Below, one piece after another: positions 1 to 5,638 of a DNA stretch of 5,683 nt. The DNA lies in the NCBI GenBank assembly GCA_001790855.1, contig MGDH01000036.1, forward strand, positions 25,233-30,915. Direction: 5' to 3'. The stretch is from Candidatus Schekmanbacteria bacterium RIFCSPLOWO2_02_FULL_38_14. Its GTDB lineage: Bacteria > Schekmanbacteria > GWA2-38-11. Positions within the stretch are counted from its first letter, which is position 1; the number at the start of each line of letters is the position of its first letter. A program made the position numbers and the translations under genes. The notes under the pieces are model-generated. The model had not been told where the DNA came from and did no database searches. It saw nothing but the letters and a program-made list of their open reading frames with translations.

Positions 1-106
1 TGGTATTCAGGTTATTCCTGTTTGCCATTAAGATGAAAAACACTCCTATCAGCGGGAAAAATGTAATTACTGTAAGCACTGGAAAAAACTCCTTGCTCAT
101 AAACAT
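1..106 (-). CDS. nuoM: NADH-quinone oxidoreductase subunit M, N-terminal fragment
   Basis: This is the first 35 codons of an antiporter-like membrane subunit of complex I; the rest lies beyond the left edge. The readable N-terminus (MFMSKEFFPVLTVITFFPLI, continuing hydrophobic) is one membrane segment with the FPLIG pattern common at NuoM/NuoL N-termini. The start at 106 is well fixed: an in-frame TAG directly precedes the ATG, and AGAGGA sits upstream with GAGG (113-116) 6 nt from the codon. A second ATG at 100 would lie too far from it. The gene begins 35 bp after the nuoL stop, in the usual L-M order. The assignment rests mainly on gene order, because so little protein is visible. In the complete complex NuoM is one of three proton-pumping antiporter modules. 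Confidence 0.8.
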   Translation of the reverse strand, partial: MFMSKEFFPVLTVITFFPLIGVFFILMANRNNLNT

Positions 107-141
107 CTATTTCCTCTTTAAAAATATCCTTAATGTCTACT

Positions 142-2073
142 TTATCTCAGCAAATAATATCCCAGTATCATAACTGCCCCGATTAATATTGAAAGCATAT
201 ATGACTGGGCAACACCAGTCTGAAGCCTCCTTAAAACAGAGCTCCCGCCTTCAAAAAATGACGCAACACCATTAACAATGCCGTCAATTACCCTGTTGTC
301 AAAAGACTCCCATAAAAAGATTGAGCCGTTTTTAATCGGGTTAACAAACAACGTGTCATAAATTTCATCAATATAATATTTATTCAGAAGAACCCTGTGT
401 ATCCCCTTGAAGCTTGAAGATATCTTCTGAGGCAGTTCGCTTTTAACAATATAAAGGAAATATGCTGTCACAAGTCCTATGAGTGCAATCCCGACAGAAA
501 CTGCCATCAGAATAAATTCAAGAGACTCACCTCCTCCGTGTCCCGCAGCAGGACTTGGTTGTTCACCACCAAGAACAGGCGATAAGAAGGATACAATCTC
601 ATTATGCCCGCCAAAAACATGAGGAACTCCGACATAACCTCCCACCACTGAAAGTATTGCAAGGATTATAAGCGGTATAGTCATAACTGCCGGAGACTCG
701 TGCAAATGGTGCAGTTTTTCATCAGAGCCCCTGAACCCTCCAAAGAATGTAACAAAAAGAAGCCTGAACATATAAAAAGATGTAAAGCCGGCTGCAACAG
801 CGCCAACAAGCCACAGCCACGGTGAGCCGTAATGTCCGCTGTAAGCCTGCCACAAAATTTCATCCTTGCTGAAGAACCCTGAAAATCCCGGCAACCCTGT
901 AATTGCAATTGTTCCTGCGAGGAATGTAAAAAATGTTACAGGCATATGCTTTCTCAAAGCGCCCATTTTCCAGATATCCTGCTCTCCGCCCATTCCGTGG
1001 ATGACGCTCCCTGCGCCCAGAAACAAAAGGGCTTTGAAAAATGCGTGGGTCATAAGGTGGAATATGCCTGCTGTGAATGCTCCGACCCCGCAGCCAAGAA
1101 ACATATAGCCAAGCTGGCTCACAGTTGAATAAGCAAGAACCCTTTTTATGTCGTTCTGAACAAGCCCGATTGAGGCTGCAAAAATGGCAGTAGCTGCGCC
1201 AATTATTGCCACAAGCATCATTGAGTCAGGCGCAAGAATGTACAGGAAATTGCACCGCGATACCATGTAAACCCCTGCTGTAACCATTGTTGCTGCGTGG
1301 ATTAATGCGCTGACAGGAGTTGGACCCTCCATTGCATCCGGCAACCATACATAGAGAGGTATCTGCGCTGACTTTCCGCAGGCACCAATGAAAAGAAGTA
1401 TTGTTATGAGAGTTATTGTCGGGTCTCCTGCTGTAAAATCAGTTCCTGCTTTTTCAAAAACCTCCCTGAACTCAACGCTCCTGAATGTAGAGAATATGAG
1501 CATAACGCCAAGAATAAACCCAAAATCACCTATCCGGTTTACAATGAATGCCTTCTTGCCTGCATCAGATGCTGATTTTTTCTCAAACCAGAAGCCTATT
1601 AAAAGATATGAACAGAGTCCCACTCCTTCCCATCCGACAAACATCAGAAGGAAATTATTTGCAAGGACAAGAATAAGCATTGAAAAGGTGAAAAGATTAA
1701 GATAGGCAAAATACCTGAAATAGCCGGGCTCATTATGCATGTAACCCACTGAGTAGATGTGGATTAAAAACCCGACTCCTGTTACAACAAGAATCATTAT
1801 CCCGGAAAGAGGGTCAATCTGGAACCCTATGTCAGCATTGAAATCTCCTGAGCCGATCCATGTGTATATTATTTTCTGGAAAAATCTTGTCTCAGGTGAA
1901 AGATTGAGAAGTTGTGTAAATATGCTCAGGGAGACAAGAAAAGATGCGCCGACAACTGCACAGCCGACAAATCCGACAGCCTTGTTGCCGATTTTTTTTC
2001 CCAAAAGACCGTTAATAACGGTACCAATTAATGGAAAAAGTGGAATCAGCCATATATATTCAAACATTTTCAT
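142..2073 (-). CDS. nuoL: NADH-quinone oxidoreductase subunit L (antiporter-like, distal membrane arm)
   Basis: A complete 643-residue protein, slightly longer than E. coli NuoL (613). NuoL is the terminal pumping subunit of complex I, and its long lateral helix runs along the membrane arm. The expected ionisable residues are visible: E149 in GWEGVGLCSY, D183 in NRIGDFGF, K234 in ACGKSAQIPLYVWLPDAM, H259 in ALIHAATMV, H343 and K347 in THAFFKALLF, and K403 in GFFSKDE. These match the E. coli pumping residues with a steady offset of about five. A Gly/His-rich loop lies near residues 485-515, then the amphipathic lateral-helix region (about 545-605) and a final membrane helix (about 622-641). 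The ATG at 2073 abuts the nuoK stop (TAAATG) with only a weak Shine-Dalgarno, so translational coupling is likely; a second ATG at 2067 is possible. No truncation or frameshift is seen. Confidence 0.97.
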   Translation of the reverse strand: MKMFEYIWLIPLFPLIGTVINGLLGKKIGNKAVGFVGCAVVGASFLVSLSIFTQLLNLSPETRFFQKIIYTWIGSGDFNADIGFQIDPLSGIMILVVTGVGFLIHIYSVGYMHNEPGYFRYFAYLNLFTFSMLILVLANNFLLMFVGWEGVGLCSYLLIGFWFEKKSASDAGKKAFIVNRIGDFGFILGVMLIFSTFRSVEFREVFEKAGTDFTAGDPTITLITILLFIGACGKSAQIPLYVWLPDAMEGPTPVSALIHAATMVTAGVYMVSRCNFLYILAPDSMMLVAIIGAATAIFAASIGLVQNDIKRVLAYSTVSQLGYMFLGCGVGAFTAGIFHLMTHAFFKALLFLGAGSVIHGMGGEQDIWKMGALRKHMPVTFFTFLAGTIAITGLPGFSGFFSKDEILWQAYSGHYGSPWLWLVGAVAAGFTSFYMFRLLFVTFFGGFRGSDEKLHHLHESPAVMTIPLIILAILSVVGGYVGVPHVFGGHNEIVSFLSPVLGGEQPSPAAGHGGGESLEFILMAVSVGIALIGLVTAYFLYIVKSELPQKISSSFKGIHRVLLNKYYIDEIYDTLFVNPIKNGSIFLWESFDNRVIDGIVNGVASFFEGGSSVLRRLQTGVAQSYMLSILIGAVMILGYYLLR

Positions 2074-2379
2074 TTACCATTTCATCAGATTTATTTCATC
2101 AACATTCACAGTAGCCCTGTTTCTGAAAATCAGAATGATTATTGCAAGCCCGACCACAACCTCAGCAGCAGCTACTGAGAGGACAAAAAAAACGAAGACC
2201 TGACCGTCCAGCGAATTCAGATACCTTGAAAAGGCAATAAAGGTCAGGTTCACAGCATTGAGCATCAGCTCAATACACATGAAAATCACGAGCGCGCTTC
2301 TTCTTACCAGAACACCAATAAGCCCGATGGTAAAAAGAACTCCTGAGAGTATGAGATAATGAGTCAGAGTAATCATCAT
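2074..2379 (-). CDS. nuoK: NADH-quinone oxidoreductase subunit K
   Basis: A small three-helix membrane subunit (101 residues from the first ATG) that is part of the proton path next to NuoJ and NuoN, homologous to MrpC. Both essential membrane glutamates are present, E37 in [10 protein letters not shown] and E73 in [10 protein letters not shown]. They correspond to E. coli E36 and E72. The one-residue offset and the family N-terminus (MI.L.H.LIL) suggest the real start is the second ATG at 2376, giving 100 residues. The Shine-Dalgarno GAGG (2384-2387) is 7 nt from that codon and only 4 nt from the first. This ribosome site is formed by the last Glu-Asp codons of nuoJ, and the first ATG overlaps the nuoJ TGA by one base, so the two genes are translationally coupled. 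Confidence 0.97.
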
Positions 2380-2900
2380 CAGTCCTCTTTTTTTCCTAAA
2401 ACAACTGCTCCGATAATTGCAACAAGAAGCAGTACAGAAGTAACCTCAAAAGGAAGAAGAAAATCAGTGAAGAGAAGTTTTCCAATGACCTTTGTATTCC
2501 CTCCTGCTTCAGCAATGTTTTCCGGAGTATAAATCTCCTTTGAAAGAGACCGGGTTCCAAAAGCCTTTATGGCTATGAAACCCTCTGCCAGAAAAATGAC
2601 CGCAAAAACAATTCCAAAATATTTCTGTATCCTGAGTTTGCTGAAAAAATCCTCTTCCCTCTTCAAATCCATAAGCATTATCACAAAAAGGAAAAGCACC
2701 ATGATAGCCCCTGCATAGACCAGAATCTGCACTGCAGCTACGAAATGCGCATTCAGCAGCACATAAAGCCCTGCAAGAGAAAGAAAAGTAATAACCAGAG
2801 ACACTGCGCTTGAAACAGGGTTTTTCCTGATTACAACAAAAACTGCAGATATTATTGCTACTGTAGCAAACAGATAAAACAAAACAGTTTCTAACAGCAA
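2379..2900 (-). CDS. nuoJ: NADH-quinone oxidoreductase subunit J
   Basis: A 173-residue membrane subunit with five predicted helices, close to the usual length (E. coli 184). The diagnostic third helix is present (residues about 54-77, with [20 protein letters not shown]), where a conserved Tyr/Gly-rich stretch forms the pi-bulge involved in coupling. The C-terminal helix contains [19 protein letters not shown], as in the family. The start codon is TTG at 2900. AGGAG (2907-2911) lies 6 nt upstream, an in-frame TAG overlaps that site, and the next in-frame ATG would remove two helices, so the TTG start is well supported. NuoI normally precedes NuoJ but is missing: upstream lies a 126 bp repeat-filled spacer and then nuoH. 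It overlaps nuoK by one base. Confidence 0.96.
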
Positions 2901-2906
2901 CTTAAT

Positions 2907-2911
2907 CTCCT
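2907..2911 (-). promoter_or_regulatory. Ribosome binding site fixing the TTG start of nuoJ
   Basis: On the minus strand AGGAG is followed by a 6 nt spacer and TTG. An in-frame TAG (2912-2910) overlaps the Shine-Dalgarno, so no start further upstream is possible in this frame. The arrangement mirrors that of nuoH. Confidence 0.75.
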
Positions 2912-2917
2912 AAATAA

Positions 2918-3022
2918 GGATTCAAGGGTTCCAGGGTTCGAGGGTTCAAGTGAATATGAACCAAAAAGAAATTTGACTCTTAAAATTCCCTTAAACCCTT
3001 GACCCCTAGAACCCTTAACCCC
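2918..3022. repeat. Inverted pair of tandem octamer arrays in the nuoH-nuoJ spacer
   Basis: Two 33 bp arms (2918-2950 and 2990-3022) are inverted copies of each other, matching at 26 of 33 positions by hand alignment, around a 39 bp AT-rich centre. Each arm is about four tandem 8 bp units; in the right-arm orientation they read CTTAAACC, CTTGACCC, CTAGAACC and CTTAACCC, giving a consensus near CTTGAACC. Several mismatches become G-U pairs in RNA, so the transcript could fold into a long hairpin ending about 17 nt before the nuoJ ribosome site. It fills nearly the whole spacer where nuoI would be expected. A related array lies in the nuoE-nuoH spacer. The repeat structure is read directly; its function is unknown. 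Confidence 0.85.
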
Positions 3023-3026
3023 ATCT

Positions 3027-4091
3027 CTAATAAACATCCCACATTATCAATGCACCTGTTATCAGTATATTCAATATTGAAAGCGGAAGAAAAACCTTCC
3101 AGCCAAGCCTCATAAGCTGGTCATAACGGAATCTCGGAAGAGACCATCTCACCCAGATAAACAGGAACAATAAAAGCCCCACCTTTGCACAGAACCAGAT
3201 TATAGGCATAAACCAGAGCCTGTCAACAATTGGAAGCCCCATCCATCCTCCAACAGGCAGTCCCTGCCATCCTCCCAGATACAGAGAGACTATCATTGCT
3301 GAGGCAGTAACCATGTTTGAATACTCTGCCATGAAAAACATTGCAAATTTCATGCTGCTGTACTCTGTATGGTATCCTGCAACAAGCTCAGAGTCTGCCT
3401 CTGGAAGGTCAAATGGAAGCCTGTTTGTTTCAGCAAAAGAGGAAACCAGAAAAATCAGAAAACCTAAAAACTGCGGAAAGATATACCAGTATCTTCCCTG
3501 GTCATTCACAATATCAGCAAGACTTAACGACCCTGCCATCATAATGATTCCCATTACTGAAAGCCCCATTGAAATCTCATAGCTAATCATCTGGGCAGAA
3601 GCCCTGAGCCCTCCCATAAGCGAATATTTGCTGTTTGATGCCCAGCCTCCAAGAACAATCCCGTAAACTCCGAGAGAGGCAATGGCAAAAACATATATTA
3701 TTCCTACATTCAAATCCGCTATCTGAAGCCTCACAGGAGTGTCAAGAAATCCAAAGAATGTTGTCTTGGGACCAAAAGGTATCACTGCAAAAGTCATAAG
3801 CGAAGGCACAATTGAAATAGCCGGAGCCAAAACATAAAATATTTTGTTTACATGGTCTGGTATTATGTCTTCCTTGAAAATAAATTTTATTCCATCTGCA
3901 AGGGGCTGGAGAAGCCCGAATGGACCAACCCTGTTTGGACCTATGCGGTATTGAATCCGTGCGCATATCTTTCTTTCTGCAAGCGAAAGAACAGCCACAG
4001 TAGTCATTATAATCCCGAAGACAAAAAAAATCTCTATTACATTAATTGTCCACGGATTTTTCAATATGTTTATTAACAGTTCTCTATTCAA
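3027..4091 (-). CDS. nuoH: NADH-quinone oxidoreductase subunit H (quinone-channel subunit)
   Basis: A complete 354-residue membrane subunit with about eight helices (E. coli 325). NuoH forms much of the quinone-binding chamber and anchors the hydrophilic arm to the membrane arm. Family signatures are plain: AERKICARIQYRIGPNRVGP (38-57) followed by FGLLQPLADGIKF, the stretch SAQMISYEISMG with E172, and ETNRLPFDLPEADSELVAGY (221-240) followed by HTEYSSMKF. The start codon is TTG at 4091, with AAGGA 6 nt upstream and an in-frame TAA overlapping it; the first internal ATG is codon 29 and would destroy the first helix. NuoF and NuoG, usually just upstream, are absent: a 128 bp spacer separates it from nuoE. 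NuoI, usually just downstream, is also absent. Its NuoB/D/I partners are not encoded in this window. Confidence 0.97.
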   Translation of the reverse strand: MNRELLINILKNPWTINVIEIFFVFGIIMTTVAVLSLAERKICARIQYRIGPNRVGPFGLLQPLADGIKFIFKEDIIPDHVNKIFYVLAPAISIVPSLMTFAVIPFGPKTTFFGFLDTPVRLQIADLNVGIIYVFAIASLGVYGIVLGGWASNSKYSLMGGLRASAQMISYEISMGLSVMGIIMMAGSLSLADIVNDQGRYWYIFPQFLGFLIFLVSSFAETNRLPFDLPEADSELVAGYHTEYSSMKFAMFFMAEYSNMVTASAMIVSLYLGGWQGLPVGGWMGLPIVDRLWFMPIIWFCAKVGLLLFLFIWVRWSLPRFRYDQLMRLGWKVFLPLSILNILITGALIMWDVY

Positions 4092-4107
4092 TTTGAATCC
4101 TTAAAGT
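4092..4107. repeat. Degenerate octamer-repeat copy at the nuoH start
   Basis: TTTGAATC followed by CTTAAAGT resembles two units of the CTTGAACC octamer family. The 10-mer TTGAATCCTT (4093-4102) recurs exactly at 4189-4198, so direct copies bracket the G6/C6 palindrome. On the minus strand this copy supplies the AAGGA Shine-Dalgarno of nuoH. Confidence 0.5.
4098..4102 (-). promoter_or_regulatory. Ribosome binding site fixing the TTG start of nuoH
   Basis: AAGGA on the minus strand is followed by TTCAAA and the TTG start. An in-frame TAA (4103-4101) overlaps it, so the start is bounded. The site lies inside a degenerate copy of the local octamer repeat. Confidence 0.72.
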
Positions 4108-4124
4108 TCTTTAATAGTATTCTA

Positions 4125-4172
4125 CAAATCCCCCCATCCCCCCTTTAGAAAAGGGGGGCAAGGGGGGATTTG
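4125..4172. repeat. 48 bp G6/C6 palindromic repeat in the nuoE-nuoH spacer
   Basis: The left arm CAAATCCCCCCATCCCCCC (4125-4143) pairs with the right arm GGGGGGCAAGGGGGGATTTG (4153-4172), apart from a small AT against CAA internal mismatch. TTT/AAA extends the stem to an AGA loop. The result is a very stable cruciform or RNA hairpin with two G6 runs per strand. It has the look of a dispersed REP or MITE-like intergenic element, but only this full copy is in the window; an 11 bp match (AAATCCCCCCA) occurs at 5244-5254. On the minus strand it is not followed by a T run, so it is not a classic terminator for nuoE. It could still lower read-through or protect mRNA ends. Confidence 0.88.
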
Positions 4173-4187
4173 TTTTTCATTTTCTCC

Positions 4188-4210
4188 CTTGAATCCTTGA
4201 CCCCTTACCC
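4188..4210. repeat. Octamer tandem array downstream of nuoE
   Basis: Three adjoining units read CTTGAATC, CTTGACCC and CTTACCC, the same family as the arrays at 2918-3022 and in the orientation of their right arm. A 13 bp stretch here (4186-4198, CCCTTGAATCCTT) is the exact reverse complement of 2916-2928. It starts about 10 bp beyond the nuoE stop. Confidence 0.65.
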
Positions 4211-4219
4211 TTATGAAGT

Positions 4220-4690
4220 CTATTTGAGCTTTTCTAAAATCTCATCCACCCTTTCAATGCTCAAATCCTCATAATAATCTTCATTTATTTGCATCATTGG
4301 AGCTGTGCCGCAAGAGCCAAGACACTCAACAGTAACAAGAGTGAACCTGTTATCTATGGTTGTTTCACCAACCTGTATCCCAAGTTTTTTTTCAATATGC
4401 TGTACTATTTTTTCTGCATTCAGAAGTGAGCAGGAGATATTGTTACAGACCTGAATGAAATATTTCCCGACAGGCTTTTTATTGTACATTGTATAAAATG
4501 TTGCCACGCCATAGACTTCAGATTGAGGCAGACCCATAATAGAAGCAACATAATCCATTACCTCCCTGCTGATGTACCCAAACTCCCTCTGAGCAAGATA
4601 AAGCGTTGGAAGAAGCCCTGCCTGTTTATCAGGATACTTCTTTAAAATCTCTTCAAACTCTTGCTTTGCCTTTTCTGAAAACATTACCAT
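4220..4690 (-). CDS. nuoE: NADH-quinone oxidoreductase subunit E ([2Fe-2S] thioredoxin-like subunit)
   Basis: A 156-residue soluble protein, normal length for the 24 kDa subunit family. An N-terminal helical region (about 5-65, with LPTLYLAQREFGYI and VYGVATFYTMY) precedes a thioredoxin-like [2Fe-2S] domain. All four cluster ligands are present: C82 and C87 (CNNISC) and C123 and C127 (CLGSCG). In complex I it sits beside NuoF at the NADH site and holds cluster N1a. The same family also occurs in NAD-linked hydrogenases and formate dehydrogenases, but the surrounding nuo genes favour complex I. NuoF and NuoG do not follow it. The start is limited to ATG 4690 or 4684 by an in-frame TAG just upstream; no strong Shine-Dalgarno is visible. 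It may have its own promoter in the gap after nuoA. Confidence 0.95.
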   Translation of the reverse strand: MVMFSEKAKQEFEEILKKYPDKQAGLLPTLYLAQREFGYISREVMDYVASIMGLPQSEVYGVATFYTMYNKKPVGKYFIQVCNNISCSLLNAEKIVQHIEKKLGIQVGETTIDNRFTLVTVECLGSCGTAPMMQINEDYYEDLSIERVDEILEKLK

Positions 4691-4720
4691 GATATTCTAT
4701 TATTTCTCAAACATACATGT

Positions 4721-4749
4721 TTTATAACCAAAAACTCTAACCTTCACAA
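4721..4749 (-). promoter_or_regulatory. Candidate sigma70-like promoter for nuoE
   Basis: On the minus strand TTGTGA (4749-4744) is separated by exactly 17 bp from TATAAA (4726-4721), a 4/6 and 5/6 match to the consensus hexamers. It lies wholly within the 63 bp gap between the nuoA stop and the nuoE start. A short inverted repeat, AAACAT-AC-ATGTTT (4709-4722), covers the end of the -10 box and the expected start point. AT-rich DNA gives such matches by chance, so this is suggestive only. Confidence 0.42.
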
Positions 4750-4753
4750 TGAA

Positions 4754-5131
4754 CTACTCCCATTCCAGCGCCTTTCTCTTCCATACATATACAAAACCTA
4801 TTAAAAGTATTATTATAAAAACAATCATTTCAATAAATGCAAAGGATCCAAGAACCTTTAATTCACGAAAAACTACTGCCCACGGATATAAAAATACTAT
4901 TTCGATATCAAAGATTATAAATAACATCGCTATGAGATAAAATTTAATTGGAAATCTTAACCGTGCAGAACTTACAGGCGGAACGCCGCATTCGTAGGGG
5001 GATAACTTTTCTTTGTTATATATCCTTCTGCCAACAAGATATGAAAGTAACAGATTGGCAAACGCAAAACCTACTACAATTAAAACTAAGATAAAGATTG
5101 GCACATAACTGTAAAGACCTTGTTCCATCAT
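4754..5131 (-). CDS. nuoA: NADH-quinone oxidoreductase subunit A
   Basis: A small three-helix membrane subunit of complex I located at the junction of the quinone module and membrane arm. From the ATG at 5131 it is 125 residues, typical for the family, and begins MMEQGLYSYVPIF. Signatures include KLSPYECG, the stretch RFPIKFYLIAMLFIIFDIEI with the conserved Asp and Glu, VFLYPWAV, and the C-terminal YVWKRKALEWE. The frame stays open to an ATG at 5260, which has a passable GGGGA upstream, but those extra 43 residues are Lys/Arg-rich, unlike known NuoA N-termini, and include repeat-like DNA. I therefore prefer 5131 or 5128, with weak GGATGG upstream. Most of the gene is about 33% GC by hand count, well below nuoL. 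NuoB, C and D, which normally follow, are missing. Confidence 0.93.
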   Translation of the reverse strand: MMEQGLYSYVPIFILVLIVVGFAFANLLLSYLVGRRIYNKEKLSPYECGVPPVSSARLRFPIKFYLIAMLFIIFDIEIVFLYPWAVVFRELKVLGSFAFIEMIVFIIILLIGFVYVWKRKALEWE

Positions 5132-5299
5132 TACCCATCCATTCACAAAACTCTTAGTCTTCTTCTTATTAATTTTCTCTAGTTGCCACATCCACTCATG
5201 CGGAGTGATTCTTTTTTTTCTCTCTTCTCGCTTTACAGAAAGAAAATCCCCCCAACTCATAACATCCCCATTTCAGGAGAGAATCTAAGCTGAGGGGAA

Positions 5300-5329
5300 A
5301 TTATATTATTATTTGAAAAGCAAAATCAA
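5300..5329 (-). promoter_or_regulatory. Candidate promoter for nuoA overlapping the end of atpE
   Basis: A perfect -10 hexamer TATAAT (5305-5300) on the minus strand is preceded, 18 bp away, by TTGATT (5329-5324, 4/6 match). It overlaps the last codons and stop of atpE and would start transcription near 5293, leaving a leader of about 160 nt before the preferred nuoA start. This could uncouple nuo transcription from the ATP synthase gene. No T-tailed terminator separates the two genes. The evidence is sequence match only. Confidence 0.4.
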
Positions 5330-5638
5330 AACTACAACAAAGGTGTAAATTACAAGGGATTCAATCAATGCTAATCCGATAATCATAGCTGTTTGAATTT
5401 TTCCTGAAGCATTTGGATTGCGCGCAATCCCTTCCACGGCCGAGCTTACGCTTTTGCCCTGTCCCAAGGCGCCTCCAAAAGCTGCTATTGCTATTCCGAT
5501 AGCGCAAGCAATATAGACATAATTAAAACTTCCTTTGCCACTCTCTACATTCGCTGCCTCTTCCTGAGCCATTACCATTGTACCGGAAAAAAGAAGAAGC
5601 CCAAAGAGAAGTACTGATACCAAAACCGCTTTATTCAT
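5309..5638 (-). CDS. atpE: F-type ATP synthase subunit c
   Basis: Forms the rotating c-ring of the membrane Fo sector. The 109-residue product is longer than the usual 70-90 because of a leader-like N-terminus: Lys3, a hydrophobic run (4-19) and VMAQ, suggesting cleavage after A24, then an acidic linker. Two transmembrane hairpin helices follow (about 39-65 and 80-107), joined by the conserved polar loop ARNPNASG containing R73. The ion-carrying glutamate is E93 in LALIESLVIYTF. Q60, E93, S94 and Y98 align without gaps with Q32, E65, S66 and Y70 of the Na+-binding Ilyobacter c subunit, whereas T67 is Leu here. The start ATG 5638 has GGTGAG (5647-5652) 8 nt upstream. Other ATP synthase genes would lie to the right, outside the window. 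Confidence 0.95.
   Translation of the reverse strand: MNKAVLVSVLLFGLLLFSGTMVMAQEEAANVESGKGSFNYVYIACAIGIAIAAFGGALGQGKSVSSAVEGIARNPNASGKIQTAMIIGLALIESLVIYTFVVVLILLFK

Follow-up and report, generated by a model that had tools for sequence, protein, structure and literature searches.

Gene content of the window

The window, by which we mean the entire stretch of 5,683 nucleotides analysed here, corresponds to positions 25233-30915 of contig C36 in a draft genome of 2.68 Mb (43 contigs, 99.4% complete). Reading of the open reading frames (ORFs) revealed intact genes on the minus strand in the order (atpE)-nuoA-E-H-J-K-L-(start of nuoM), and the subunit identities obtained with Pfam and NCBIfam were in agreement. 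The gene order A-E-H-J-K-L-M proposed in the initial annotation was thus reproduced exactly. Directly upstream of nuoA lies atpE (5309-5638, minus strand; PF00137), which encodes subunit c of the ATP synthase F0 part and is itself preceded, just outside the window, by atpB and a gene for a 76-aa protein. The nuoA ORF (4754-5260, minus strand) matches PF00507 over ORF residues 68-167. Since NuoA of the related genome G002 is 126 aa long and starts at the equivalent Met, the true start of NuoA is probably located at 5131 or 5128, giving a protein of ∼124 aa, and the first ∼43 residues of the ORF are probably untranslated.

The next gene, nuoE (4220-4690, minus strand), was recognized by PF01257 (E=1.4e-58) and scored above the TIGR01958 cut-off. 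Its product carries the Cys pattern of the 2Fe-2S (N1a) ligands at Cys82, 87, 123 and 127, and the nearest solved chains are the 24-kDa subunits of complex I. This gene is followed, all on the minus strand, by nuoH (3027-4091; PF00146, E=6e-130), the product of which is monophyletic with the cluster-1 NuoH proteins of the relatives, nuoJ (2379-2900; PF00499, E=3.7e-44), nuoK (2074-2379; PF00420, E=7.5e-31) and nuoL (142-2073; TIGR01974 and PRK06590, both above cut-off). The 5′ end of nuoM occupies positions 1-106 (minus strand); the gene continues beyond the window, its full extent being 8397-10106 in locus L003, and nuoN follows just outside the window on the same contig (L003, 6941-8485).

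Junctions at the canonical positions of the absent genes

Three minus-strand junctions mark the positions where further genes would sit in a canonical operon, namely a 63-bp A-E junction (4691-4753) at the site of nuoB-C-D, a 128-bp E-H junction (4092-4219) at the site of nuoF-G, and a 126-bp H-J junction (2901-3026) at the site of nuoI. These lengths agree exactly with those in the initial annotation, which had described the junctions as free of coding remnants. The latter point was borne out by a very permissive tblastn search with all subunits (E<=1), which returned no coding remnants in the three junctions, only chance-level scraps of mostly 8-20 aa. In three related genomes of the same phylum (G001, G002 and G003), the A-E junction measures 35, 2 and -1 bp, the E-H junction 164, 52 and 24 bp, and the H-J junction 229, -16 and -76 bp, where some starts are approximate. 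As the A-E and H-J junctions of G002 and G003 are reduced to a few bases or to overlaps, they leave no space for lost genes.

The E-H and H-J junctions of the window (4092-4219 and 2901-3026) contain palindromic, repeat-like runs, including C/G runs in the E-H junction, as exemplified by CCCCCCTT...AAGGGGGG and GAACCCT/AGGGTTC. The greater length of the junctions in this genome is thus made up by sequence resembling a dispersed palindromic repeat. On contigs C3 and C13 (loci L004 and L017), comparable stretches at the coding ends of genes seem to specify tails rich in proline and glycine.

A complementary operon on a second contig

A genome-wide search for nuoB, C, D, F, G, I and N, as the initial annotation had advised, located all of them. 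While nuoN directly follows nuoM, the other genes form a single minus-strand cluster, nuoB-CD(fused)-F-G-I, on contig C25 (L005, 4190-9941), as named by Pfam and NCBIfam. Of the options listed in the initial annotation, the one placing the hydrophilic redox genes elsewhere in the genome was therefore the one that held. The cluster on C25 shows the canonical order minus A, E, H and J-N, which is exactly the gene set at the locus of the window. Together, the two loci account for all 14 subunit genes, with A, E, H, J, K, L, M and N on C36, and B, CD, F, G and I on C25. Every gene in the two halves is intact, in keeping with the earlier reading that this is not a case of general decay. A second complete 14-gene nuo operon was not found in this genome.

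The proteins encoded on C25 carry the motifs inspected for NADH/FMN binding and Fe-S clusters. NuoF scored 640 bits against a TIGR01959 cut-off of 559, could be aligned to solved NuoF along almost its entire sequence, and contains GRGGAGFPTGLKW (GRGGxGFPxGxKW pattern) together with CxxCxxC, which identifies it as the NADH/FMN-binding type with N3 ligands. NuoI has two CxxCxxCxxxC motifs, NuoB has Cys37/38/103/132, and the NuoD part of the fused protein has the HPxMHG motif. NuoG is short (560 aa), as is its molybdopterin-like region; PF13510, PF10588 and PF22117 all match, so that the N1b, N4 and N5 regions are present. Against TIGR01973, the protein as a whole scored 442, short of the equivalog cut-off of 470. 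Many subunits scored under some NCBIfam equivalog cut-offs, as is to be expected for a divergent phylum.

Taken together, these data indicate that the window very probably represents one half of a two-locus ('split'), yet complete, 14-subunit proton-pumping NADH:quinone oxidoreductase. Nothing is missing; the enzyme is an ordinary one with an unusual, conserved arrangement of its genes in two operons. As predicted from the gene content, the operon nuoA-E-H-J-K-L-M-N behind atpB-atpE would supply the seven membrane subunits plus NuoE, and the operon nuoB-CD-F-G-I would supply the Q-module, NuoF and NuoG. A single complex of the usual kind would then form from the products of both operons. In this complex, NADH would reduce the FMN in NuoF, on which NuoE with its N1a cluster would dock, and electrons would pass via the clusters of NuoG, NuoI and NuoB to quinone, thereby driving proton pumping by the membrane arm.

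Conservation of the partition across the phylum

To compare the gene order in related genomes, another check proposed in the initial annotation, we inspected four genomes of the phylum, namely that of the window (G000), G001, G002 and G003. The same partition was present in all three relatives: each of the four genomes has atpB-atpE-A-E-H-J-K-L-M-N at one locus and B-CD-F-G-I at another. In G002, the membrane-arm locus lies ∼140 kb inside a contig of 614 kb, and the second locus is on a 46-kb contig. Trees of NuoB, D, E, F, H, L and M all (7/7) united the four genomes in a single cluster-1 clade with the internal topology (G000,G001),(G002,G003), the support of the NuoE clade being only 0.69. 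The recurrence of the same two loci with a matching tree topology implies that the split is old, was fixed before these four genomes diverged from their last common ancestor, and was inherited vertically.

The probable partner of NuoE

The initial annotation had considered the retention of NuoE without NuoF especially odd. In the whole genome we found two NuoE proteins (window and contig C10) and two NuoF proteins (C25 and C10), and there is no NuoE beside the NuoF of C25. The latter can thus supply the partner, being itself devoid of an adjoining NuoE. When similarity was ranked across 44 reference loci that each have B, D, E, F and H, the window NuoE correlated best with the C25 NuoF (Spearman 0.71), as compared to 0.55 for NuoD and 0.07 for NuoH. 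Indirectly, this correlation agrees with E and F forming a functional pair although their genes lie at separate loci, and we infer that the partner of the window NuoE would be the C25 NuoF, which lacks a neighbouring NuoE of its own.

The NuoE and NuoF proteins of C10 were rejected as partners for the window cluster, as this locus has its own NuoE and its NuoF is a HydB-like protein of 641 aa. The locus (L018, G000:C10, 6356-10711) encodes a NuoG-like protein (264 aa), this HydB-like NuoF and a NuoE beside a protein resembling the beta subunit of 2-oxoacid:ferredoxin oxidoreductase. The pair is HydBC-like, consisting of a fusion-type NuoF and its own NuoE, and perhaps belongs to an NAD-linked or bifurcating oxidoreductase. 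G002 (C2) and G003 (C167) likewise have E and F genes of the C10 type.

Alternative explanations and a second complex I

Conceivably, the true sequence has the missing genes at the three junctions, from which they dropped out through a collapse of the assembly. This idea might draw on the draft state of the genome, with its 43 contigs, and on the repeat-like sequence in the E-H and H-J junctions. However, the assembly contains the missing genes as a single cluster at another place, and three further, independent genomes have the same two loci and junctions, one of them on the 614-kb contig. With the same two loci in four independent genomes, the collapsed contig suggested in the initial annotation is excluded for practical purposes. 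Hardly more credible is another option raised there, namely that a different electron-input module docks on the membrane arm. Such a module might be NuoEF-like as on C10 or of the ferredoxin type, with the window NuoE being a leftover or used elsewhere. The second NuoE/NuoF-type pair on C10, adjoining a 2-oxoacid-oxidoreductase-like gene, could be taken as such a module, but its own NuoE is only 32% identical to that of the window, and it is the NuoF of C25 that has none adjoining. In addition, the complementary sets occur together in four of the four genomes, the window NuoE tracks NuoF, and the genome has a full complementary module, the NuoF of which is normal. Apparent gaps in a complex I gene cluster thus call for a search of the whole genome before any other route of electron input is put forward.

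A redundant, decaying copy would be a further possibility, where a second complex I does the work and the window cluster is a remnant. Such a second complex I is indeed present in the genome, where contig ends interrupt its genes, A-B-C-D being located on C3 and J-N on C13. In the trees, it is placed in a separate clade. In the three relatives it is encoded by a contiguous cluster of 11 genes, A-B-C-D-H-I-J-K-L-M-N (L221, L224 and L228), without E, F and G. As it lacks these genes in the contiguous loci of the relatives, it is no substitute for an NADH dehydrogenase. Moreover, the genes of both halves of the split complex are all intact and have been kept in four genera. We therefore regard a redundant copy as highly improbable, and retain the reading of a complete enzyme encoded at two loci.

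The second complex is a distinct enzyme, probably of the EFG-less kind, as judged from its gene content. The cluster of the relatives (L221, L224 and L228) corresponds to the 'headless' 11-subunit form, which lacks NuoE, F and G; the complex of the window differs from this form, having E in the window and F and G on C25. An EFG-less complex I is of physiological interest, but it represents a known type. The assembly gap in the second complex of the window's genome falls inside nuoD-nuoJ.

Comparison with known nuo gene arrangements

The 14 subunits are the same as those of the canonical nuoA-N operon, and the canonical relative order is kept inside both halves. However, the canonical operon is contiguous, whereas all four genomes have A-E-H-J-K-L-M-N at one locus and B-CD-F-G-I at another. 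Among 103 E-containing clusters, D-E-F was in place in 89, and E was located between A and H only in the four genomes of this phylum. The A-E-H order was not detected outside the phylum in 80 contig loci and other genomes, a set in which near relatives may be absent and where tblastn can miss divergent subunits.

Split nuo loci are already known as a kind. In Nitrospina gracilis, the genes for NUO-2 are spread over several loci, with nuoACHIJKLMN, nuoEGD, and nuoB2 and nuoF2 apart (PMC3578206). Its loci are spread as here, but the partition is another one and its NuoF2 lacks the FMN site, unlike the normal NADH-type NuoF reported here. The single 14-subunit complex I of Desulfurobacterium thermolithotrophum is likewise encoded by two operons, ABCDHIJKLMN and EFG (PMC12724263), the divide being at the N-module boundary, in contrast to the present case. 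Partial likenesses were also encountered among the loci inspected. A Bacteriovoracaceae MAG (L097, nuoB-CD-E-F-G-I) has the peripheral-arm genes apart from the membrane arm, as here, but its NuoE stays with NuoF. The MAG Dive96_bin1.91 (L024, E-F-H-J-K-L-M-N) and clusters of the A-C-E-F-(G)-H-J type (L232 and L234) combine the membrane arm with some N-module genes and are devoid of other hydrophilic genes, as here; in both cases, F is kept beside E. Specifically, L232 (G034:C32) reads A-C-E-F-H-J and L234 (G050:C28) reads A-C-E-F-G-H-J-K-L-M-N, and these two clusters and L024 are mostly without B, D and I. In a literature search of open-access papers we found no paper on the exact partition nuoAEHJKLMN / nuoBCDFGI, which as far as we could find is undescribed. 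As the present case shows, a large respiratory complex can stay cleanly divided over two operons for long, with one N-module subunit encoded on the 'wrong' operon.

Possible origin of the two operons

As to how the partition arose, we tentatively favour a model in which an entire 14-gene operon was duplicated and the two copies then lost genes reciprocally. This state would have become fixed in the phylum's ancestor and left NuoE on the membrane-arm operon. The idea was prompted by the gene order in either half, which is canonical except that the genes of the other half are cut out. Going by gene order, one duplication with reciprocal loss would be simpler than three excisions whose products rejoined in order elsewhere. 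On contig C3 (L004, ∼10610-10852, minus strand), towards the contig end, we found the C-terminal part of a nuoD of the cluster-1 type, which is decayed and frameshifted and has a DNA identity of 75% to the nuoCD of C25 and 77% to that of G001. This piece points to a further copy of this type in the past, unless it resides on a mis-binned contig. Being located at neither of the two loci, it backs the duplication model weakly. If the duplication model is true, the synthesis of NuoE would be uncoupled from that of NuoF and tied to the membrane-arm and ATP synthase F0 genes, and this tie of NuoE to the membrane-arm operon could possibly set the stoichiometry of assembly.

The ATP synthase genes are also split. 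In the window's genome, atpB-atpE and the gene for the 76-aa protein are located on C36 (L003, 15309-16624), and the genes for the b subunits, delta and F1 are on C26 (L256, 4203-10552). Such a split layout is fairly common for ATP synthase. In each of the four genomes, however, the genes for the F0 membrane subunits a and c stand next to those for the membrane arm of complex I.
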